From contig NZ_JALUXE010000028.1 of NCBI RefSeq assembly GCF_027019125.1, positions 1-64,000 on the forward strand: DNA of 64,000 bases. The letters are read 5' to 3'. Each line of letters opens with the position of its first letter. Within the stretch, counting starts at the first letter, position 1. The translations under genes were made by a program, and so were the position numbers. The notes beneath the pieces are model-generated. The model did no database searches. It was not told the origin of the DNA and worked only from the letters and a program-made list of their open reading frames with translations. Below are positions 50,717 through 64,000 of the stretch, one piece after another. The DNA is from Roseovarius sp. GTDB taxonomy: Bacteria > Pseudomonadota > Alphaproteobacteria > Rhodobacterales > Rhodobacteraceae.

Positions 50717-53536
50717 ATGACACATCAGCCCCGCATCGACACCTCGCCGCATGTCTCGGATGAGGTGCGCAAAACCACCTGTTACATGTGCGCCTGCCGC
50801 TGCGGCATCAACGTGCACCTCAAGGGGGGCAAGGTTGCCTATATCGAAGGCAATCGCGACCACCCGGTGAACAAGGGGGTGCTCTGCGCCAAGGGCTCGG
50901 CCGGCATCATGCAGGTCAACGCCCCCTCGCGCCTGCGCGCGCCACTCAAGCGGGTCGGCCCCCGTGGCTCGGGCGAGTTTCAGGAAATCTCTTGGGACGA
51001 GGCGCTGCAAATCGCCACTGACTGGCTCGAACCGATCCGCCATAACGATCCGTCCAAGCTCGCGTTCTTCACAGGGCGCGATCAATCGCAGTCTTTCACA
51101 AGCTTCTGGGCGCAGAATTTCGGCACCCCCAACTATGCCGCACATGGCGGATTCTGCTCGGTCAACATGGCGGCGGCCGGTATCTACACGATGGGCGGCG
51201 CATTCTGGGAATTTGGCCAGCCGGACTGGGAGCATACCAAGCTTTTCATCCTCTTCGGCGTTGCCGAAGACCATGACAGCAACCCGATCAAGATGGGCAT
51301 TGGCCGGATCAAGGCACGGGGCGCGCGCGTCATTGGCGTGAACCCGATCCGCTCTGGCTACAACGCCGTGGCAGATGACTGGGTGGGCATAACCCCCGGA
51401 ACGGATGGGCTTTTCATCCTGTCGCTCATCCACGAACTGATGCGGTCGGGCAAGATCGACCTCGACTACCTCGCGCGCTACACCAATGCGCCGGTGCTGG
51501 TGAACAGCGATCCCGCCTCGCCCGAGCACGGGCTTTTCCTGCGCGATGATGATGGCAAGCCTCTGGTGATCGACCGCAAGACCGGCCAGCTCACCGCCTT
51601 TGACACACCCGGCGTGCGCCCTGATCTCTCGGCCACATACGAGGCAGACGGCATCACGCATCGCCCGGTGATGCACCTGATGGCCGAACGCTATCTCGAT
51701 CCGCAATACGCTCCAGAGGCAGTCTCTGGGCGCTGCGGCGTGACCCCCGACAAGATCCGCCGAATCGCCGCCGAAATCGCGCGCGTGGCTTTTGACGAGG
51801 CAATCACGCTCGATCACGAATGGACCGACTTCCGCGGCGAGACGCATCAGACCATGACCGGCCGCCCCGTCAGCTTTCACGCCATGCGCGGAATTTCGGC
51901 GCATTCCAACGGGTTCCAGACGGCCCGCGCCCTGCATGTGATGCAAATCCTGCTCGGCACGGTCGAGGTGCCCGGCGGTTTCCGCTTCAAACCGCCCTAT
52001 CCCAAACCCGTAAGCGCCCACCCCAAACCGCATTGCGGCGTGCAGCCCGATTGCCCGCTCGACGGCCCGCATCTGGGCTTTGTGCGCGGCCCAGAGGATC
52101 TGGCGCTCAAACCCGACGGCACGCCCGCCCGCATCGACAAGGCATTTACCTGGGAAAACCCGATGTCGGCGCATGGGCTGATGCATATGGTCATCTCCAA
52201 CGCCCATGCCGGTGATCCCTACAAGATCGACACGCTCTTCATGTACATGGCCAACATGTCGTGGAATTCCTCGATGAACACGCGCGGCGTGATCGAGATG
52301 CTGACCGACAAGGACGAGAGCGGTGCCTATGTCATTCCCCGCATCATCTATTCGGATGCCTATAGCTCTGAGATGGTCGCCTATGCCGATCTGATTCTGC
52401 CCGACACAACCTATCTGGAACGCCACGATTGCATCTCGCTGCTGGATCGCCCGATCTGCGAGGCGGATGCCGCCGCCGATGCGATCCGCTGGCCGGTGAT
52501 CGAACCTGACCGGGATGTGCGCGGCTTTCAAACCGTGCTGGTGCAATTGGCCAACAAGCTGAAATTGCCCGGTTTCACCGCCGAGGATGGCACGGCGAAA
52601 TACGCCGATTACGCCGATTACATCGTCAATCACGAGCGAAAACCGGGCATCGGCCCACTCTCGGGCTTTCGCGGCGATGGCACAGAGACTGGACGCGGTG
52701 CGCCCAACCCAGACCAGCTTGACCAATACATCGAGAACGGCGGCTTTTTCGTCAACCACATCCCCGACGGCGCGCAGTATTACAAACCGTGGAACATGGC
52801 CTATCAGAATTGGGCCGTCGGTATGGGCCTCTTTGACACGCCACAGCCCTATGTGTTTGATCTCTATGTCGAAACCATGCGCAGGTTCCAACTGGCCGCC
52901 GAGGGGCATGGCACGCGCCAGCCCCCCGACCACCTGCGTGACCGGATCAAGGCCACGATGGACCCGCTGCCAATCTGGTATCCTCCCTTCGAGGAGGCGC
53001 ATGTCGATCCCGACGAATTCCCCGTCCATGCGCTGACACAGCGCCCAATGGCGATGTATCACTCCTGGGGTACGCAAAACGCATGGCTGCGCCAGATTCA
53101 CGGTCAAAATCCGCTCTACCTGCCCACCAAAATCTGGGAAAAGCACGGTTTCAGAGATGGGGATTGGGCGCGCGTCACCTCTGCCCATGGCGAGATCACC
53201 GTGCCCGTGGCGCATATGGCCGCGCTCAACGAAAACACCGTCTGGACATGGAACGCCATCGGCAAGCGCAAGGGGGCCTGGGCGCTCTCCGAGGATGCCC
53301 CCGAGGCAACGCGCGGCTTTCTGCTCAACCATCTGATCCACGAGCTTTTGCCGCCCAAGGGTGACGGCCTCAGATGGTCCAATTCCGATCCCATCACCGG
53401 ACAGGCGGCGTGGTTCGACCTGCGCGTCAAGATCGACAAAGCCACGGCACCGCAAGAAGCGCAGCCCGCCTTCGCCCCGATCAAATCGCCGGTTGGGCAG
53501 GGCCCCGAGCATCTTGAATGGAAGGTCGGAAAATGA
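50717..53536 (+). CDS. soeA: Sulfite dehydrogenase (quinone) SoeA-type molybdopterin subunit
   Basis: A DMSO-reductase superfamily protein of 939 residues. An N-terminal [4Fe-4S] site is formed by Cys 22, 25, 29 and 57; the bis-MGD-binding core follows. There is no Tat signal, so it faces the cytoplasm as in the SoeABC sulfite-oxidising complex of Allochromatium and Roseobacter relatives. It lies in the same direction as xsc-ackA, which releases sulfite. The specificity assignment rests on context and overall resemblance, since other complex iron-sulfur molybdoenzymes share the fold. Confidence 0.88.
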   Translation: MTHQPRIDTSPHVSDEVRKTTCYMCACRCGINVHLKGGKVAYIEGNRDHPVNKGVLCAKGSAGIMQVNAPSRLRAPLKRVGPRGSGEFQEISWDEALQIATDWLEPIRHNDPSKLAFFTGRDQSQSFTSFWAQNFGTPNYAAHGGFCSVNMAAAGIYTMGGAFWEFGQPDWEHTKLFILFGVAEDHDSNPIKMGIGRIKARGARVIGVNPIRSGYNAVADDWVGITPGTDGLFILSLIHELMRSGKIDLDYLARYTNAPVLVNSDPASPEHGLFLRDDDGKPLVIDRKTGQLTAFDTPGVRPDLSATYEADGITHRPVMHLMAERYLDPQYAPEAVSGRCGVTPDKIRRIAAEIARVAFDEAITLDHEWTDFRGETHQTMTGRPVSFHAMRGISAHSNGFQTARALHVMQILLGTVEVPGGFRFKPPYPKPVSAHPKPHCGVQPDCPLDGPHLGFVRGPEDLALKPDGTPARIDKAFTWENPMSAHGLMHMVISNAHAGDPYKIDTLFMYMANMSWNSSMNTRGVIEMLTDKDESGAYVIPRIIYSDAYSSEMVAYADLILPDTTYLERHDCISLLDRPICEADAAADAIRWPVIEPDRDVRGFQTVLVQLANKLKLPGFTAEDGTAKYADYADYIVNHERKPGIGPLSGFRGDGTETGRGAPNPDQLDQYIENGGFFVNHIPDGAQYYKPWNMAYQNWAVGMGLFDTPQPYVFDLYVETMRRFQLAAEGHGTRQPPDHLRDRIKATMDPLPIWYPPFEEAHVDPDEFPVHALTQRPMAMYHSWGTQNAWLRQIHGQNPLYLPTKIWEKHGFRDGDWARVTSAHGEITVPVAHMAALNENTVWTWNAIGKRKGAWALSEDAPEATRGFLLNHLIHELLPPKGDGLRWSNSDPITGQAAWFDLRVKIDKATAPQEAQPAFAPIKSPVGQGPEHLEWKVGK

Positions 53537-53682
53537 GCGGCAAAGCCCTGACATTGCTGGTCATTCTGGCCTTTGTCGCGTTCAGCGTCGGCTCGTTCAT
53601 CTGGTTCATCGCCACATGGGACAAGAGCCGCGAAGAACCGGTGAGCATCCGACCCCTTATCCTAGAGGAGCGCCGCACATGA
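53533..53682 (+). CDS. 49-residue membrane protein nested between soeA and soeB
   Basis: An ORF of 49 codons plus stop. It begins MSGKALTLLVILAFVAFSVG and has one predicted membrane segment (about residues 5-27) followed by a charged tail (KSREE near residue 32-36). Its ATG (53533-53535) overlaps the soeA TGA (53534-53536) and its TGA (53680-53682) overlaps the soeB ATG (53679-53681), so ATGA junctions link all three. I recognise no family. The coupling makes a translated subunit or assembly partner of SoeABC likely. Confidence 0.75.
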   Translation: MSGKALTLLVILAFVAFSVGSFIWFIATWDKSREEPVSIRPLILEERRT

Positions 53683-54461
53683 CAACGCTTCCCGCATCCA
53701 CCACCCGAAAACTGGGCCTGGTGATCGACCTCGACACCTGCGTCGGCTGTCACGCCTGCGTGGTATCCTGCAAGGGCTGGAACACCGAGAATTACGGCGC
53801 TCCCCTGAGTGATCAGCAACCCTATGGCGCGGCCCCTTCGGGCACATTCCTCAACCGCGTTCACAGCTATGAGGTGCAGCCGCTGGCTAGCTCGGCCATG
53901 CCGCACCCCGCCGCGCAACTGGTGCATTTCCCCAAATCCTGTCTGCATTGCGAGGACGCGCCTTGCGTCACCGTCTGTCCCACGGGGGCCAGCTACAAGC
54001 GCGTCGAGGATGGGATCGTTCTGGTCAATGAGAGCAATTGCATCGGCTGCGGTCTCTGTGCCTGGGCCTGTCCCTATGGCGCGCGCGAAATGGACGCCGC
54101 AGAAGGGGTGATGAAGAAATGCACCCTCTGCGTGGACCGCATCTATAACGAGAACCTGCCCGAGGTCGACCGCGTGCCGGCCTGCGTGCGCACCTGCCCC
54201 GCCGGTGCCCGCCATTTCGGGGATTTCGCAGATCCCGAAAGCAATGTCTCGAAACTCACCGCCGAGCGCGGTGGCCTCGATCTCATGCCGGAACAGTCCA
54301 CCAAACCTGTCAACAAATACCTGCCGCCGCGCCCCAAGGATCGGCTCGACCAACCCAAGCCGGTGGGCGAGATCGACATTCTGGCGCCGTTCCTCGCCCC
54401 CGTGATCGAGGAACCCAAGGGCTTCCTTGGCTGGCTCGACAAGACCTTGGAGAAGCTCTGA
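53679..54461 (+). CDS. soeB: SoeB-type [4Fe-4S] electron-transfer subunit
   Basis: 260 residues with four four-Cys clusters: Cys 21, 24, 27 and 31 in CVGCHACVVSC; CLHCEDAPCVTVCP; CIGCGLCAWACP; and CTLCVDR with CVRTCP. This is the ferredoxin-like subunit of a DmsB/PsrB-type complex, passing electrons from SoeA to SoeC. It overlaps the 49-residue ORF upstream and soeC downstream by one base (TGATG). Confidence 0.92.
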   Translation: MTTLPASTTRKLGLVIDLDTCVGCHACVVSCKGWNTENYGAPLSDQQPYGAAPSGTFLNRVHSYEVQPLASSAMPHPAAQLVHFPKSCLHCEDAPCVTVCPTGASYKRVEDGIVLVNESNCIGCGLCAWACPYGAREMDAAEGVMKKCTLCVDRIYNENLPEVDRVPACVRTCPAGARHFGDFADPESNVSKLTAERGGLDLMPEQSTKPVNKYLPPRPKDRLDQPKPVGEIDILAPFLAPVIEEPKGFLGWLDKTLEKL

Positions 54462-55333
54462 TGCATCCAGCCCCTTCCGTCATCGTCTTTACCACGCTTT
54501 CGGGCCTGGGCTTTGGCCTGCTGTTCTGGCTGGGTCTGGGACTGCCTGCGGTCACTGGCTGGGTTGCCTTCGCCTTCTTCGCCATCGCCTATGCACTGGC
54601 CGTGGGCGGGCTCATGGCTTCAACCTTTCACCTCGGGCATCCCGAACGCGCATGGAAAGCGTTTAGCCAGTGGCGGTCAAGCTGGCTGAGCCGCGAAGGC
54701 GTCTGCGCGGTCGCGGCGCTTGTCGTCATGGGGATTTACGGCGCAGGTCTTGTATTCCTTGACGAACGTATGGCGCTTTTGGGCTGGTGTGGCGCAGCGC
54801 TCGCTCTTGGCACCGTGTTCACCACGTCGATGATCTATGCCCAACTGAAAACCGTGCCACGCTGGAGAACCCCCCTGACACCCGCGCTCTTGATTGCGAT
54901 TTCACTGGCCGGCGGCGCGCTTTTGGCGGGGCAGGTCAGCGCGGCGCTGATCCTGATCCCGATCGCAGGGGTCCTGCAAATCCTGTGGTGGGTGCGCGGC
55001 GACGGGGCCTTTGCCGCCTCGGGCACGGATATGGCAACAGCAACGGGCCTTGGGCATATCGGCACGGTGCGCGCCTTTGAGCCACCCCATACCGGGCCCA
55101 ACTACCTCTTGCGGGAATTGGTCTTTCAGGTTGGGCGCAAACACGCGCTGAAACTGCGCGGCATTGCCTTTGGTCTGGGCTATGCCGTGCCTGTCCTGCT
55201 CTTGCTTGTGCCCTTTAGCCATGCTCTGGCCTTGGTCGCTGTCCTCGCCCATGTCGCCGGGGTCGCGGCGTCACGCTGGCTGTTCTTTGCCGAGGCAGAG
55301 CATGTCGTGGGTCTCTACTACGGCAAGCGCTGA
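54461..55333 (+). CDS. soeC: SoeC-type membrane anchor (DmsC/NrfD-like)
   Basis: 290 residues with eight predicted membrane helices; helices include VFTTLSGLGFGLLFWLGLGL and AFFAIAYALAVGGLMASTFH. The STFHLGHPERAWKAF loop is typical of DmsC-like quinone-reactive anchors. It passes sulfite-derived electrons to the quinone pool. It is the last gene of the soe set, 18 bases before the end of a convergent gene. Confidence 0.88.
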   Translation: MHPAPSVIVFTTLSGLGFGLLFWLGLGLPAVTGWVAFAFFAIAYALAVGGLMASTFHLGHPERAWKAFSQWRSSWLSREGVCAVAALVVMGIYGAGLVFLDERMALLGWCGAALALGTVFTTSMIYAQLKTVPRWRTPLTPALLIAISLAGGALLAGQVSAALILIPIAGVLQILWWVRGDGAFAASGTDMATATGLGHIGTVRAFEPPHTGPNYLLRELVFQVGRKHALKLRGIAFGLGYAVPVLLLLVPFSHALALVAVLAHVAGVAASRWLFFAEAEHVVGLYYGKR

Positions 55334-60495: not shown

Positions 60496-60660
60496 GACTT
60501 TCTCCGCATGTGGTTGGGCCGCCGGTTCCTGACCTCTACCAAGGAACAGGCCCGACATTCAACGATCACGCGCCAGACCGGGACCAGGGCAAGGCAATCC
60601 TCGTCGTTTTTGGCGAGAAAGATGTTGCAATAGGGCTAGGACGTGCGGATATGCGCGATA

Positions 60661-60729: not shown

Positions 60730-61221
60730 ATGAAACGGCTCGGGCTTGATGCAACGGATATCCGCATTCTCAATGCGGTCCAACAGCATGGCCCCCTGAG
60801 CAAGACTCGGCTGGCTGAGATTGCCAATATCTCGCCGACCCCGTGTTGGGCACGTCTTGACCGTTTGAAAGCGGCGGGCTTTATCCGCGGGTATCACGCG
60901 GATATCGTGCTCGAGAAGATCTGCGATTTTACCGAGGTGGTCGTTACCGTCTCGCTCACACATCACCGCAAGGCGGATTTTGACCGGTTCGAGGGGTTCG
61001 TCCGCGGGCGCGACGAGATCACCGAATGTGTCGCCACCGGCGGCGGCATGGACTATGTGATGCGCGTCATCTGCCCCAGCCTTGCGCGGTTCCAGACCGT
61101 GATGGACGCCATGCTTGCCGGTGACTTGGGCATCGACCGCTACATGACCTACATCGCCACGCGGCGAGTCAAATCCGGTCAACCGAGTCTCGCGCTTCTC
61201 ACGGCAAAAGACGGCAAGTGA
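60730..61221 (+). CDS. Lrp/AsnC family transcriptional regulator
   Basis: 163 residues: helix-turn-helix (LDATDIRILNAVQQHGPLSK, LAEIANISPTPCWARLDRL) and the RAM ligand domain with TECVATGGGMDYVMRVICPS. The start at 60730 (MKRLGLDATD) is the standard one; an open frame continues upstream without a match. It precedes the DmdA-like gene by 159 bases on the same strand and probably regulates it. Confidence 0.88.
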   Translation: MKRLGLDATDIRILNAVQQHGPLSKTRLAEIANISPTPCWARLDRLKAAGFIRGYHADIVLEKICDFTEVVVTVSLTHHRKADFDRFEGFVRGRDEITECVATGGGMDYVMRVICPSLARFQTVMDAMLAGDLGIDRYMTYIATRRVKSGQPSLALLTAKDGK

Positions 61222-61236
61222 TCCAAACGACCGCGT

Positions 61237-61278
61237 AGTCTGTCCGCGATTGAAAATCAGCCTGTTCAGTCTGCGCGG
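61237..61278 (+). promoter_or_regulatory. AGTCTG direct repeats upstream of the DmdA-like gene
   Basis: AGTCTG-T-CCGCG (61237 onward) and AGTCTG-CGCGG (61268 onward) recur 31 bases apart, about three helical turns. They lie 100-145 bases before the DmdA-like start and could bind the Lrp regulator. Confidence 0.35.
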
Positions 61279-61380
61279 ATCGTTTTTTCAGACCAAATTC
61301 CGGTGCCGTTTGGCCCTAGAAGATCGCCAGTTTCAGACAGTCCGCCGCGGTGGCGTGACGGAACAGCAAGGGCGAAAACC

Positions 61381-62523
61381 ATGATGCAAGCAGACGACTT
61401 CGGCTTTGGCACCCAGATCCGTAAATCCCCCTATTTCGACGCCACCGTGCGGTGGGGAGCCAAGGGATTTTCGGTTTACAATCATATGTATATCCCGCGT
61501 GACTTTGGTGATCCGGAGCAGAACTTCTGGACCCTCGTGAACGACGCCATCCTCTGCGACGTGGCCGTAGAGCGCCAGGTCGAGATCACCGGCCCCGACG
61601 CTGCACGCTTTGTCCAGATGCTGACGCCGCGCGACCTGTCGAAAATGGCCGTTGGCCAGTGCAAGTACATCCTGATCACCAATGCAGAGGGCGGCATTCT
61701 CAATGACCCGATCCTGCTGCGTCTGGCCGAGAACCACTTCTGGATTTCGCTGGCCGATAGCGACATCCTTCTTTGGGCGCAGGGTGTGGCGGTGCATTCC
61801 GGTATGGATGTGACCATCGGCGAACCGGACGTGTCCCCCCTGCAATTGCAAGGGCCGAAATCGGGCCTGATCATGCAAGAGCTCTTTGGCGAGAGCATCC
61901 TCGATCTGAAATACTACTGGATGCGCGAAGTCGAACTGGACGGGATGCCCTTGATCGTATCGCGCACTGGCTGGTCGAGCGAATTGGGCTATGAGATTTA
62001 CCTGCGGGATAGCGCCCATGGCGATGCCCTGTGGGAACGGATCATGGCGGCAGGCCTGCCCTTTGGGCTCAAACCCGGCCATACCTCCTCGATCCGTCGC
62101 ATCGAGGGTGGCATGCTGTCCTATCATGCCGATGCCGACATCAAGACGAACCCCTACGAGTTGGGTTTGGACCGTCTGGTCAATCTCGACATCGAGGCAG
62201 AGTTCATCGGCAAGGCCGCGCTGCGCCGCATCCGCGACGAGGGCCCCAGCCGCAAGCAGGTCGGCCTGATCATCGACGGCGCACCGCTCAAGGGGCCGAA
62301 CACCACCTTCTGGGCGATCAATGTGTCGGGCGTGCAGGTCGGCAAAGTCACGTCAGCCGTCTACTCACCGCGTCTGGAGCGTAACATCGCATTGGCCATG
62401 GTCGCGGCAGAACATGCCAATATCGGTGCCAAGGTCGAGGTTGTGACCGGTAAGGGACCCGTGCGCGCCGTGATGGTGGAGCGCCCCTTCTACGACCCCA
62501 ACAAGAAAATCGCCGCCGCCTGA
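61381..62523 (+). CDS. DmdA-like (GcvT-family) tetrahydrofolate demethylase
   Basis: 380 residues of the aminomethyltransferase/GcvT fold. GAKGFSVYNHMYIPRDFGDP, AVERQVEITGPDAARFVQML, GGILNDP, LADSDILL and EPDVSPLQLQGP resemble, block by block, DMSP demethylase DmdA rather than glycine-cleavage GcvT, and no gcvH/gcvP neighbours exist. DmdA moves a methyl group from DMSP to tetrahydrofolate. Whether DMSP is the substrate is not decided by sequence. It is followed by OsmC, a crotonase and a CoA ligase. Confidence 0.82.
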   Translation: MMQADDFGFGTQIRKSPYFDATVRWGAKGFSVYNHMYIPRDFGDPEQNFWTLVNDAILCDVAVERQVEITGPDAARFVQMLTPRDLSKMAVGQCKYILITNAEGGILNDPILLRLAENHFWISLADSDILLWAQGVAVHSGMDVTIGEPDVSPLQLQGPKSGLIMQELFGESILDLKYYWMREVELDGMPLIVSRTGWSSELGYEIYLRDSAHGDALWERIMAAGLPFGLKPGHTSSIRRIEGGMLSYHADADIKTNPYELGLDRLVNLDIEAEFIGKAALRRIRDEGPSRKQVGLIIDGAPLKGPNTTFWAINVSGVQVGKVTSAVYSPRLERNIALAMVAAEHANIGAKVEVVTGKGPVRAVMVERPFYDPNKKIAAA

Positions 62524-62552
62524 GCGCGCCCAACCAAGACGAGTCCTGATCC

Positions 62553-63002
62553 ATGTCCGACCTCGCAATCGAGCTGCATTGGCAGCGCGCCGAACCTGTG
62601 CTGCACACTGGCAAATACTCCAACGCCCATACCGTGCAGTTCAACAACCACCATGATGTGCAAGTGGATGCCGCCCCGGATTGGGGCGGTGATCCCGCCC
62701 ACACCAATCCTGAGCAGGCGCTCGCCTCGGCGCTGTCCAGTTGCCACATGATGACCTTTCTTGCCCTTGCGGCCAAGGCCGGCTGGCCGGTCGCCAGCTA
62801 TCACGACTATGCCGTGGCCCATCTGGGTAAGAACCCCAAGGGGCAAATGTCCGTCACACGGATTGATCTGCATCCGGTCGTGCGGTTCGACACCGGCTTT
62901 GCGGTTGAAGACGCGCAGCTGGCAGAAATGCAGGACCGCGCGCATCGCTACTGCTTTATCGCCAACACGCTCGCCGAGAGCGTGGAGATCAACATTCTCT
63001 GA
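62553..63002 (+). CDS. OsmC family protein
   Basis: 149 residues. The two redox Cys of the OsmC/Ohr fold are in ALSSCHMMTFLALAA and AHRYCFIANTL; the N-terminal beta-sheet is visible as ELHWQRAEPVLHTGKY. OsmC reduces organic hydroperoxides through a dithiol site. It follows the DmdA-like gene by 29 bases and precedes the crotonase by 21. Confidence 0.88.
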   Translation: MSDLAIELHWQRAEPVLHTGKYSNAHTVQFNNHHDVQVDAAPDWGGDPAHTNPEQALASALSSCHMMTFLALAAKAGWPVASYHDYAVAHLGKNPKGQMSVTRIDLHPVVRFDTGFAVEDAQLAEMQDRAHRYCFIANTLAESVEINIL

Positions 63003-63023
63003 CCTCTGAAAGGACGAGACCCC

Positions 63024-63824
63024 GTGCCAAAAAGCGATATCCTTCTCTCTGAGCTCGACGGCGAAGGCATCCTGCGCCTGACGCTGAATGACGCAGGACG
63101 CCGCAACGCGCTGTCCGAGGCAATGCTGGCAGACCTGGGTCGCGCCTTTGCGGAGGCCGGGAATGATCCCGCGGTGCGGGTCATCGTTCTTGCCGCAAAC
63201 GGGCCCGCGTTCTGCGCGGGCCATGACCTCAAGGAAATGACCGCGGGGCGGGCCGGAGCGGACCGGGGTCGCGCCTATTTCACCAGGATCATGGCGCTCT
63301 GTTCCGGCGTGATGCAGGCCATCGTGAACTGCCCCAAGCCGGTGATCGCCGAGGTTACGGGCATCGCCACCGCAGCAGGCTGTCAGTTGGTGGCAAGCTG
63401 CGATCTGGCGATTGCGGCGGATACGGCGCAGTTCAGCACGCCAGGGGTGCATATCGGCCTCTTCTGCTCGACCCCGATGGTGGCCCTGTCGCGCAACGTG
63501 GCGGGCAAACATGCGATGGAGATGCTGCTGACGGGCGATATGATCCCAGCCGCGCGTGCGGCGGAAATGGGGCTTATCAATCACGCCGTAGCACCTGATG
63601 ATCTGCAGGCCGCCACGATGGCCATGGCCCGCAAGATTGCATCGAAATCAAGCATGACCCTCGCCACCGGCAAGCGCGCCTTTTACGCGCAACGCGAGAT
63701 GACCCTGTCCGATGCCTATTCCTACGCCTCCGCCGTGATGGTGGACAATATGCTGGCGCGCGATGCCCAAGAGGGCATCGGTGCCTTTATCGAGAAACGC
63801 GCGCCCCAGTGGCAGGATGCCTGA
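63024..63824 (+). CDS. Enoyl-CoA hydratase/isomerase (crotonase) family, ECHDC3-like
   Basis: 266 residues from a GTG start at 63024 (GAAAGGACG upstream). Crotonase signatures are NALSEAMLADLGRAF, FCAGHDLKEMTA (first oxyanion region), NCPKPVIAEVTGIATAAGCQL and STPGVHIGLFCSTPMVALS. The FCAGHDLKEM/GLFCSTPMV pattern is that of ECHDC3-type proteins. In the DMSP route DmdD is also a crotonase, but the two are different subfamilies, so a role as DmdD is not proven. The gene is three bases from the ligase. Confidence 0.88.
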   Translation: MPKSDILLSELDGEGILRLTLNDAGRRNALSEAMLADLGRAFAEAGNDPAVRVIVLAANGPAFCAGHDLKEMTAGRAGADRGRAYFTRIMALCSGVMQAIVNCPKPVIAEVTGIATAAGCQLVASCDLAIAADTAQFSTPGVHIGLFCSTPMVALSRNVAGKHAMEMLLTGDMIPAARAAEMGLINHAVAPDDLQAATMAMARKIASKSSMTLATGKRAFYAQREMTLSDAYSYASAVMVDNMLARDAQEGIGAFIEKRAPQWQDA

Positions 63825-63827
63825 GAC

Positions 63828-64000
63828 ATGAGCACGAACCCCTACAACACGGATCTTGATCGCAACCCCGCGAACCATCAGCCGCTGACGCCGCTGACGT
63901 TTCTCGAACGCGCGGCGACGGTTTTCCCGGATCACATCGCAATTGTGCATGGCTCCCTGCGCCGCAGCTATGCAGAGTTCTACCGGCGCTCGCGCCAGCT
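63828..64000 (+). CDS. AMP-dependent acyl-CoA synthetase, N-terminal 57 codons only
   Basis: The visible start STNPYNTDLDRNPANHQPLT, LTFLERAATVFPDHIAIVHG and RSYAEFYRRSRQ matches acyl-CoA ligases in which NxANxxPLTPLxFLERAA opens the protein. In DMSP demethylation DmdB is a ligase of this superfamily that activates methylmercaptopropionate. The remainder lies past the window. Confidence 0.82.
   Translation, partial: MSTNPYNTDLDRNPANHQPLTPLTFLERAATVFPDHIAIVHGSLRRSYAEFYRRSRQ

Follow-up and report, generated by a model that had tools for sequence, protein, structure and literature searches.

The right-hand end of the window (the whole 64,000-nucleotide stretch analyzed, positions 1 to 64,000 of Roseovarius sp. 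contig NZ_JALUXE010000028.1) carries five co-directional genes, which encode in order an Lrp/AsnC-family regulator, a DmdA-like protein, an OsmC-family protein, an ECHDC3-type crotonase and an acyl-CoA ligase, and which span contig positions 60730-65474. We use D* as the label for the dmdA-like gene of this cassette and for its protein. With a probability slightly below one half (about 0.46), we consider the cassette to be a small regulon for the tetrahydrofolate (THF)-dependent demethylation of an onium-type acid; the likeliest substrate is a sulfonium compound akin to dimethylsulfoniopropionate (DMSP), possibly DMSP itself. The observations behind this reading are the gene order and its conservation, the family placement of D*, the linkage of D* in other genomes to methyl-THF and SBP56 genes, and a conserved operator-like region between lrp and D*. 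No description of this gene set was found in the open-licence literature searched. The features are as follows:

60730..61221, + strand: regulator of the Lrp/AsnC family, opening the cassette (Pfam and NCBIfam matches, position upstream of D*)
61222..61380, + strand: gap between lrp and D*, with conserved operator-like elements and a probable promoter (alignment of 75 loci)
61381..62523, + strand: D*, a DmdA-superclade protein of 380 residues, probable THF-dependent demethylase (family, tree, structural relatives)
62553..63002, + strand: OsmC-family protein with both family cysteines (family match and alignment)
63024..63824, + strand: crotonase of ECHDC3 type (PRK08139) that has Gln and Gly in place of the two catalytic Glu of hydratases (family match and alignment)
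63828..64000 in the window, ending at contig position 65474, + strand: acyl-CoA synthetase of subfamily PRK08162, 548 residues (family match)

A conserved and probably mobile unit of five genes

The open reading frames (ORFs) and the gaps between them (159, 29, 21 and 3 bases in cassette order) are as the original prediction had given them, and the families it had named agree with the Pfam and NCBIfam matches (Lrp/AsnC, GCV_T with GCV_T_C, OsmC, ECH and AMP-dependent ligase) and with the structural relatives. The lrp ORF is open from a GTG at 60643, and annotated relatives in Phaeobacter inhibens and Loktanella salsilacus have the same length of 492 bases.

Synteny was counted in 80 named loci, which are the top-scoring ones among at least 587 confirmed relatives, and it should be considered when referring to the counts below that this set is biased toward close relatives. 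By record titles, nearly all of these loci belong to Rhodobacteraceae-type genera or to unclassified alphaproteobacterial metagenome-assembled genomes (MAGs), the outliers being Hoeflea, Fodinicurvata and one Rhodospirillaceae MAG. A larger set of 110 loci contains some genomes twice, and the named loci were used instead. An Lrp gene was counted when it lay on the same strand within 400 bases upstream of D*, and an OsmC, crotonase or ligase gene when it lay on the same strand within 3.5 kb downstream; the denominators (78, 69 and 68) are the loci with enough flank, and gene predictions around the loci are imperfect. By these criteria, 76 of 78 loci have an Lrp gene directly before D*, and OsmC, the crotonase and the ligase were found downstream in 54/69, 53/69 and 46/69, respectively, with 40 of 68 loci holding the complete set of five. 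One locus has none of the four partner genes and one lacks Lrp only. Over all loci, the gaps have medians of 161, 27, 20 and 3 bases. As this synteny excludes a chance arrangement, the five genes form a real unit, and the claim that they belong together with the Lrp gene stands.

It could be argued that the ligase and the crotonase serve fatty acids or toxic acids, have no more in common with D* than the Lrp promoter and are not in one pathway with it. We consider this highly improbable, given the complete sets counted above, the rearranged locus L074, in which the order is ECH-ligase-D*, and P. inhibens P30, where a conjugative plasmid carries precisely this set of five, flanked by a pair of related genes for tyrosine recombinases (proteins 68% identical; repeats of 20 bases or more were not found at these genes). 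What would fit such a separation are the reduced loci, as 9 of the 68 have kept lrp alone and 6 have lrp and osmC but neither crotonase nor ligase, as well as three Mameliella loci that read lrp-D*-SBP56, with ligase and ECHDC3 absent, and a second ECHDC3 gene on another contig of the Roseovarius genome.

In P. inhibens, the cassette is plasmid-borne, and in strain P51 it is found on a different plasmid than in P30, one gene from an integrase. These two locations point to movement and selection of the cassette as a module. In the family sample (198 genomes, with up to nine GCV_T-type candidates scored per genome), a D* orthologue of at least 65% identity is present in 30 genomes, that of the window included, and the remaining matches have at most 53% identity to D*. 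One orthologous copy, that of genome G187, has two internal stops. The cassette of this genome (L044, L073) is decayed, its OsmC and crotonase frames being shortened as well; L044 was excluded from the D* alignment and tree.

Family placement of D* and its relation to the DMSP pathway

In a tree whose bootstrap had not settled and in which several outside rows stand on long branches, D* falls into a clade of 38 rows (support 100/100) inside a DmdA superclade of 71 rows (100/100). This superclade excludes the following proteins of the same genome: the GcvT (552.7 bits, cut-off 459), the trimethylamine N-oxide (TMAO) demethylase (1223.9 bits, cut-off 1100) and a further 10 GCV_T proteins, so that the description of the protein as DmdA-type and not GcvT is borne out. 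The D* clade is separate from canonical DmdA (100/100), which is represented by P. ubique 3TFH, the copy on contig C24 of the same genome and 20 family sequences (clades A-E are not all represented); one of these 20, L190, also lies outside the canonical clade. A short match (L010) and duplicates (L016, L017) were excluded from the tree, and can_L190 and int_L080 from the groups in the residue comparison.

By family scores, D* stays below the curated DmdA cut-off (NCBIfam NF009133, 375 vs 410 bits), where the canonical copy of its own genome reaches 677, and below the cut-offs for GcvT (PRK00389, 178 vs 300 bits; TIGR00528, 149 vs 236; PRK13579, 127 vs 459) and for TMAO demethylase (NF053776, 227 vs 1100). 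Its closest PDB relative is DmdA (3TFH, 267 bits; TMAO demethylase 150, GcvT-type protein 148), and it is 40% identical to the canonical DmdA of its own genome. On clade and family scores, a role in glycine cleavage is rejected; no gcvH or gcvP was seen among the scanned neighbours, although no search by name was made.

D* and DmdA have 23 positions in common that are unlike the consensus of the outside rows, while 33 differences between D* and canonical DmdA are fixed, several of them agreeing with the TMAO demethylase and with the majority of the remaining GCV_T rows (E201, L202). Ser123 is present in 38/38 D* rows and 33/33 other superclade rows, and in 0/13 outside rows. Ser, Glu and Tyr are described as conserved residues of the folate site of DmdA (PMC7487153). 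In D*, with positions inferred from spacing, these correspond to S123 (38/38), E205 (38/38) and Y207 (34/38, with Phe in 4). Family, tree and structural relatives taken together suggest that D* is probably a THF-dependent demethylase. As for its substrate, Trp W171, which is reported to be key for DMSP (PMC7487153 numbering), was equated with W197 of 3TFH by spacing. As Trp is found there in 38/38 D* rows but Tyr in 18/21 canonical rows, either this equation or the reported role is doubtful. This Trp was dropped as an argument on substrate after the column check, and the odds of the preferred reading, of a separate ligase-crotonase module and of a non-sulfur substrate (see below) shifted slightly with it. 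The fold comparison gave no clear substrate pointer.

Related proteins were also seen elsewhere. The Roseovarius genome has eighteen GCV_T matches in 3.8 Mb, many in frames of at least 800 residues. Haloarchaeal plasmids (hits H10, H16-H25) carry DmdA-like proteins with 37-41% identity to D*, and a plasmid of Phaeobacter sp. G2 (L194:1424-11981) has a DmdA-like gene (45%) in the vicinity of the arsenic genes arsB and arsJ and of a gene from the trimethylamine methyltransferase family.

As far as its genes tell, the cassette is not the known DMSP pathway, since a canonical dmdA with acuI stands elsewhere, the ligase is not DmdB, no dehydrogenase was found and the crotonase lacks the catalytic Glu. 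The canonical dmdA, followed by acuI, lies near the end of contig C24 (L014:8857-11043). The cassette ligase scores 299 bits on the DmdB model (NF005426, cut-off 822) and 900 bits on PRK08162. The crotonase passes the ECHDC3/PRK08139 cut-off (402 vs 313 bits), among solved structures it is closest to 3MYB and to 2VX2, the human ECHDC3, and Gln and Gly replace the two Glu in 13/13 aligned members (one of them a truncated copy), as they do in 2VX2, 3MYB and the second ECHDC3 copy of the genome. We know of no activity for the ECHDC3 family, and no enzymology of it turned up among the open-licence articles listed. DmdD, in contrast, retains both catalytic Glu (PMC5395565).

The surroundings of D*, up to ~9 kb on either side and less in some loci, yielded neither an acyl-CoA dehydrogenase gene nor acuI, both in the 80 named loci and in 29 additional ones that partly come from genomes already included; the control for this search detected paralogues at 26% identity. 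To the right of position 64000, where the original prediction had proposed to look for a dmdC-like acyl-CoA dehydrogenase, none was seen, and the ligase is followed instead by ABC-transporter genes in opposite orientation, with a solute-binding protein of DppA type. Transporters were rejected as a substrate clue, as their types vary among the scanned loci (DppA, PotD, UgpB). A normal DmdA and DmdBCD elsewhere in the genome, which had been named as counter-evidence, were found in part: besides the canonical dmdA, the genome has a DmdB-like ligase gene (687 vs 822 bits) and two genes with Pfam PF12806, which we take to be a domain of DmdC, all three unlinked to D*. The prediction had left a choice between a variant DMSP operon and a pathway for another methylated acid; these results speak against the former and favor the latter, and the cassette probably breaks down a related methylated compound. 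DMSP itself is possibly a substrate under other conditions, as in 5 of the 30 genomes with D* a second gene of the DmdA superclade was not detected at E 1e-60 (in one of the five, G025, 9/12 candidates were scored).

These five genomes bear on the view that D* is a second DMSP demethylase, in which unlinked dmdB/dmdC/acuH-type genes complete the pathway and the linked genes are auxiliary. The DmdB-like and PF12806 genes would suit it, and proven SAR92 DmdAs are only 35-40% identical to reference DmdAs (PMC10746254), like D*. However, the other 25 genomes already possess another superclade gene, D* misses the DmdA cut-off, and acuI follows dmdA in 24/26 dmdA-bearing roseobacter strains (PMC3338564) but was not found beside D*. 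In addition, a dmdA mutant of Ruegeria pomeroyi, a strain that may or may not carry D*, produces no methanethiol (PMC5395565), and two L. salsilacus genomes are reported without dmdA (PMC9283371), while records of this species, possibly from other strains, contain the cassette. We thus regard a second DMSP demethylase as unlikely. The pairing of dmdA with a GntR-type regulator, which had been assumed to be usual, does not appear in the passages of PMC3338564, the single article consulted on this point. A Roseovarius mucosus genome is reported to have two genes named dmdA, one adjoining dmdBCD (PMC4511512).

Linkage to methyl-THF and SBP56 genes, and the region before D*

SBP56 is the methanethiol-oxidase family (PMC5739008). 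An SBP56 gene lies within 10 kb of D* (in all cases within 5 kb) in 6 of the 30 family genomes, where 0.16 is expected (P ~2e-8, kinship uncorrected), and such genes are found anywhere in 22/30 genomes with D* vs 45/168 without D* (p 3e-6, kinship uncorrected). For other superclade genes, SBP56 within 10 kb was found in 2/119. Among the 80 named loci, it is near D* in nine, in eight of them downstream and on the same strand; it is absent from the window's own genome. Near D* in L064:12055-15498, L074:12669-16095 and L075, a module was seen of SBP56, a 2Fe-2S ferredoxin, a CoA-binding protein and a rhodanese, with a divergent IclR gene. A second SBP56 type is partnered by a 218-residue protein, hydrophobic by eye and with no Pfam match in the copy scanned (L048:1892-3907), and the two are found together near D* in 9/9 named loci (L090, L102, L122, L128, L142, L148, L157, L162, L163).

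In L067 an MTHFR-type gene comes after D*, whereas in L064, L068 and L125 such a gene stands downstream of the ligase (the L064 protein was scanned and the other three were grouped with it by similarity). A Lichenihabitans D* homologue (59% identity) lies between MTHFR and the pair PurU and FolD. MTHFR, PurU and FolD are the genes that oxidize methyl-THF to formate. Taken with SBP56, these neighbours speak for THF as the methyl acceptor and, with less certainty, for the release of a thiol.

The SBP56 linkage far above chance, weaker for other superclade genes, and the position of D* in a superclade marked throughout by Ser123 also argue against a non-sulfur substrate (an N-methyl, O-methyl or organoarsenic acid), with which the linkage would be general redox or sulfur housekeeping. 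This alternative draws on the fixed differences from canonical DmdA that recur in TMAO demethylase, on the O- and N-demethylases among GCV_T-related families, on the amino-acid-type transporters and aminotransferase near the Lichenihabitans homologue and on the arsenic genes near a more distant one, although we find it doubtful and prefer a sulfonium acid.

The gap between lrp and D*, aligned for 75 loci, shows conservation between genera and has 24 of 162 columns with at least 75% identity and 11 with at least 90%, against 5 of 151 and 0 in a control stretch upstream of lrp. It carries CAGTCTG / CAGACC-like repeats, and GTCTG, a five-base motif that is weak alone, occurs in 51/75 gaps vs 10/75 upstream stretches. 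We infer that the gap contains a candidate operator bound by the cassette Lrp and a promoter. A riboswitch was rejected, as the sole Rfam match in the four loci scanned was a tRNA.

Methanethiol oxidation by SBP56 yields hydrogen peroxide, and a role of OsmC with peroxide or oxidized sulfur is plausible. Wherever the aligned OsmC members extend over the two cysteine positions, both cysteines are conserved, and the OsmC of SAR11 is strongly up under sulfur limitation (PMC5069961).

Two further loci were seen on the contig. About 7 kb to the right of the cassette, C28:72892-79998 (L013:12892-19998) looks like a sulfoacetate-use locus, with a LacI-type regulator, the acylating sulfoacetaldehyde dehydrogenase SauS (706 bits, cut-off 600), an AMP-ligase and what we take to be tripartite-transporter-like genes. 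At window positions 50717-55333 is a three-gene molybdopterin/iron-sulfur/membrane set that presumably resembles the SoeABC sulfite dehydrogenase; NCBIfam gives sub-threshold relatives for two of the genes and none for the third.

A possible pathway and comparison with known systems

In the preferred reading, D* would transfer one methyl group to THF, giving 5-methyl-THF and a demethylated (thioether) acid, which the AMP-dependent ligase would convert to its CoA thioester. The ECHDC3-type crotonase may act on this thioester, not as a normal hydratase, and a thiol, e.g., methanethiol, would be freed at this step or later, with OsmC handling peroxide or oxidized-sulfur by-products. Lrp would sense a pathway metabolite and bind the repeats between lrp and D*.

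A more specific version is a dehydrogenase-free route, in which the sulfonium acid would be demethylated, activated to a beta-thioether acyl-CoA and relieved of its thiol directly (demethiolation). According to an old proposal, methylmercaptopropionate (MMPA) loses methanethiol directly, giving acrylate (PMC3338564), and the cassette would fit this, as it has a demethylase, a CoA ligase and a crotonase and no dehydrogenase. The missing crotonase glutamates weigh against ordinary crotonase elimination chemistry in such a route, which we hold to be rather improbable. If true, it would provide the first function for the ECHDC3 family, which humans share, and the cassette offers a genetic handle on these crotonases, for which we know of no chemistry. 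The plasmid records examined label D* only as 'glycine cleavage T C-terminal barrel domain-containing protein', and because of this generic name, surveys of DMSP genes can easily overlook it or take it for dmdA. Should D* use DMSP, the potential for methanethiol would be underestimated; should its substrate be a different onium compound, an unrecognized flux of methyl groups and sulfur becomes testable.

Compared with the dmdA-acuI operon of roseobacters, D* is likewise a one-domain GCV_T protein of the same superclade and fold, but differs in its separate clade, its fixed differences, its sub-cut-off score, the Lrp gene in front and the lack of a detected acuI nearby. The dmdA-acuH-dmdB-dmdC clusters of SAR92 (PMC10746254) also hold a demethylase, a CoA ligase and a crotonase as neighbours, whereas in the cassette no acyl-CoA dehydrogenase was detected, the ligase is of another subfamily and the crotonase is without catalytic Glu. 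With GcvT, D* shares the GCV_T fold and family domains, although it stands apart from the GcvT of its own genome and below the GcvT cut-offs. The SBP56 neighbours of D* in several genomes belong to the same superfamily as the MtoX methanethiol oxidases, although the two proteins scanned fall below the MtoX cut-off. Finally, the cassette crotonase is of the same family as 2VX2 and 3MYB and has the same Gln and Gly, but differs from them in being operon-borne.

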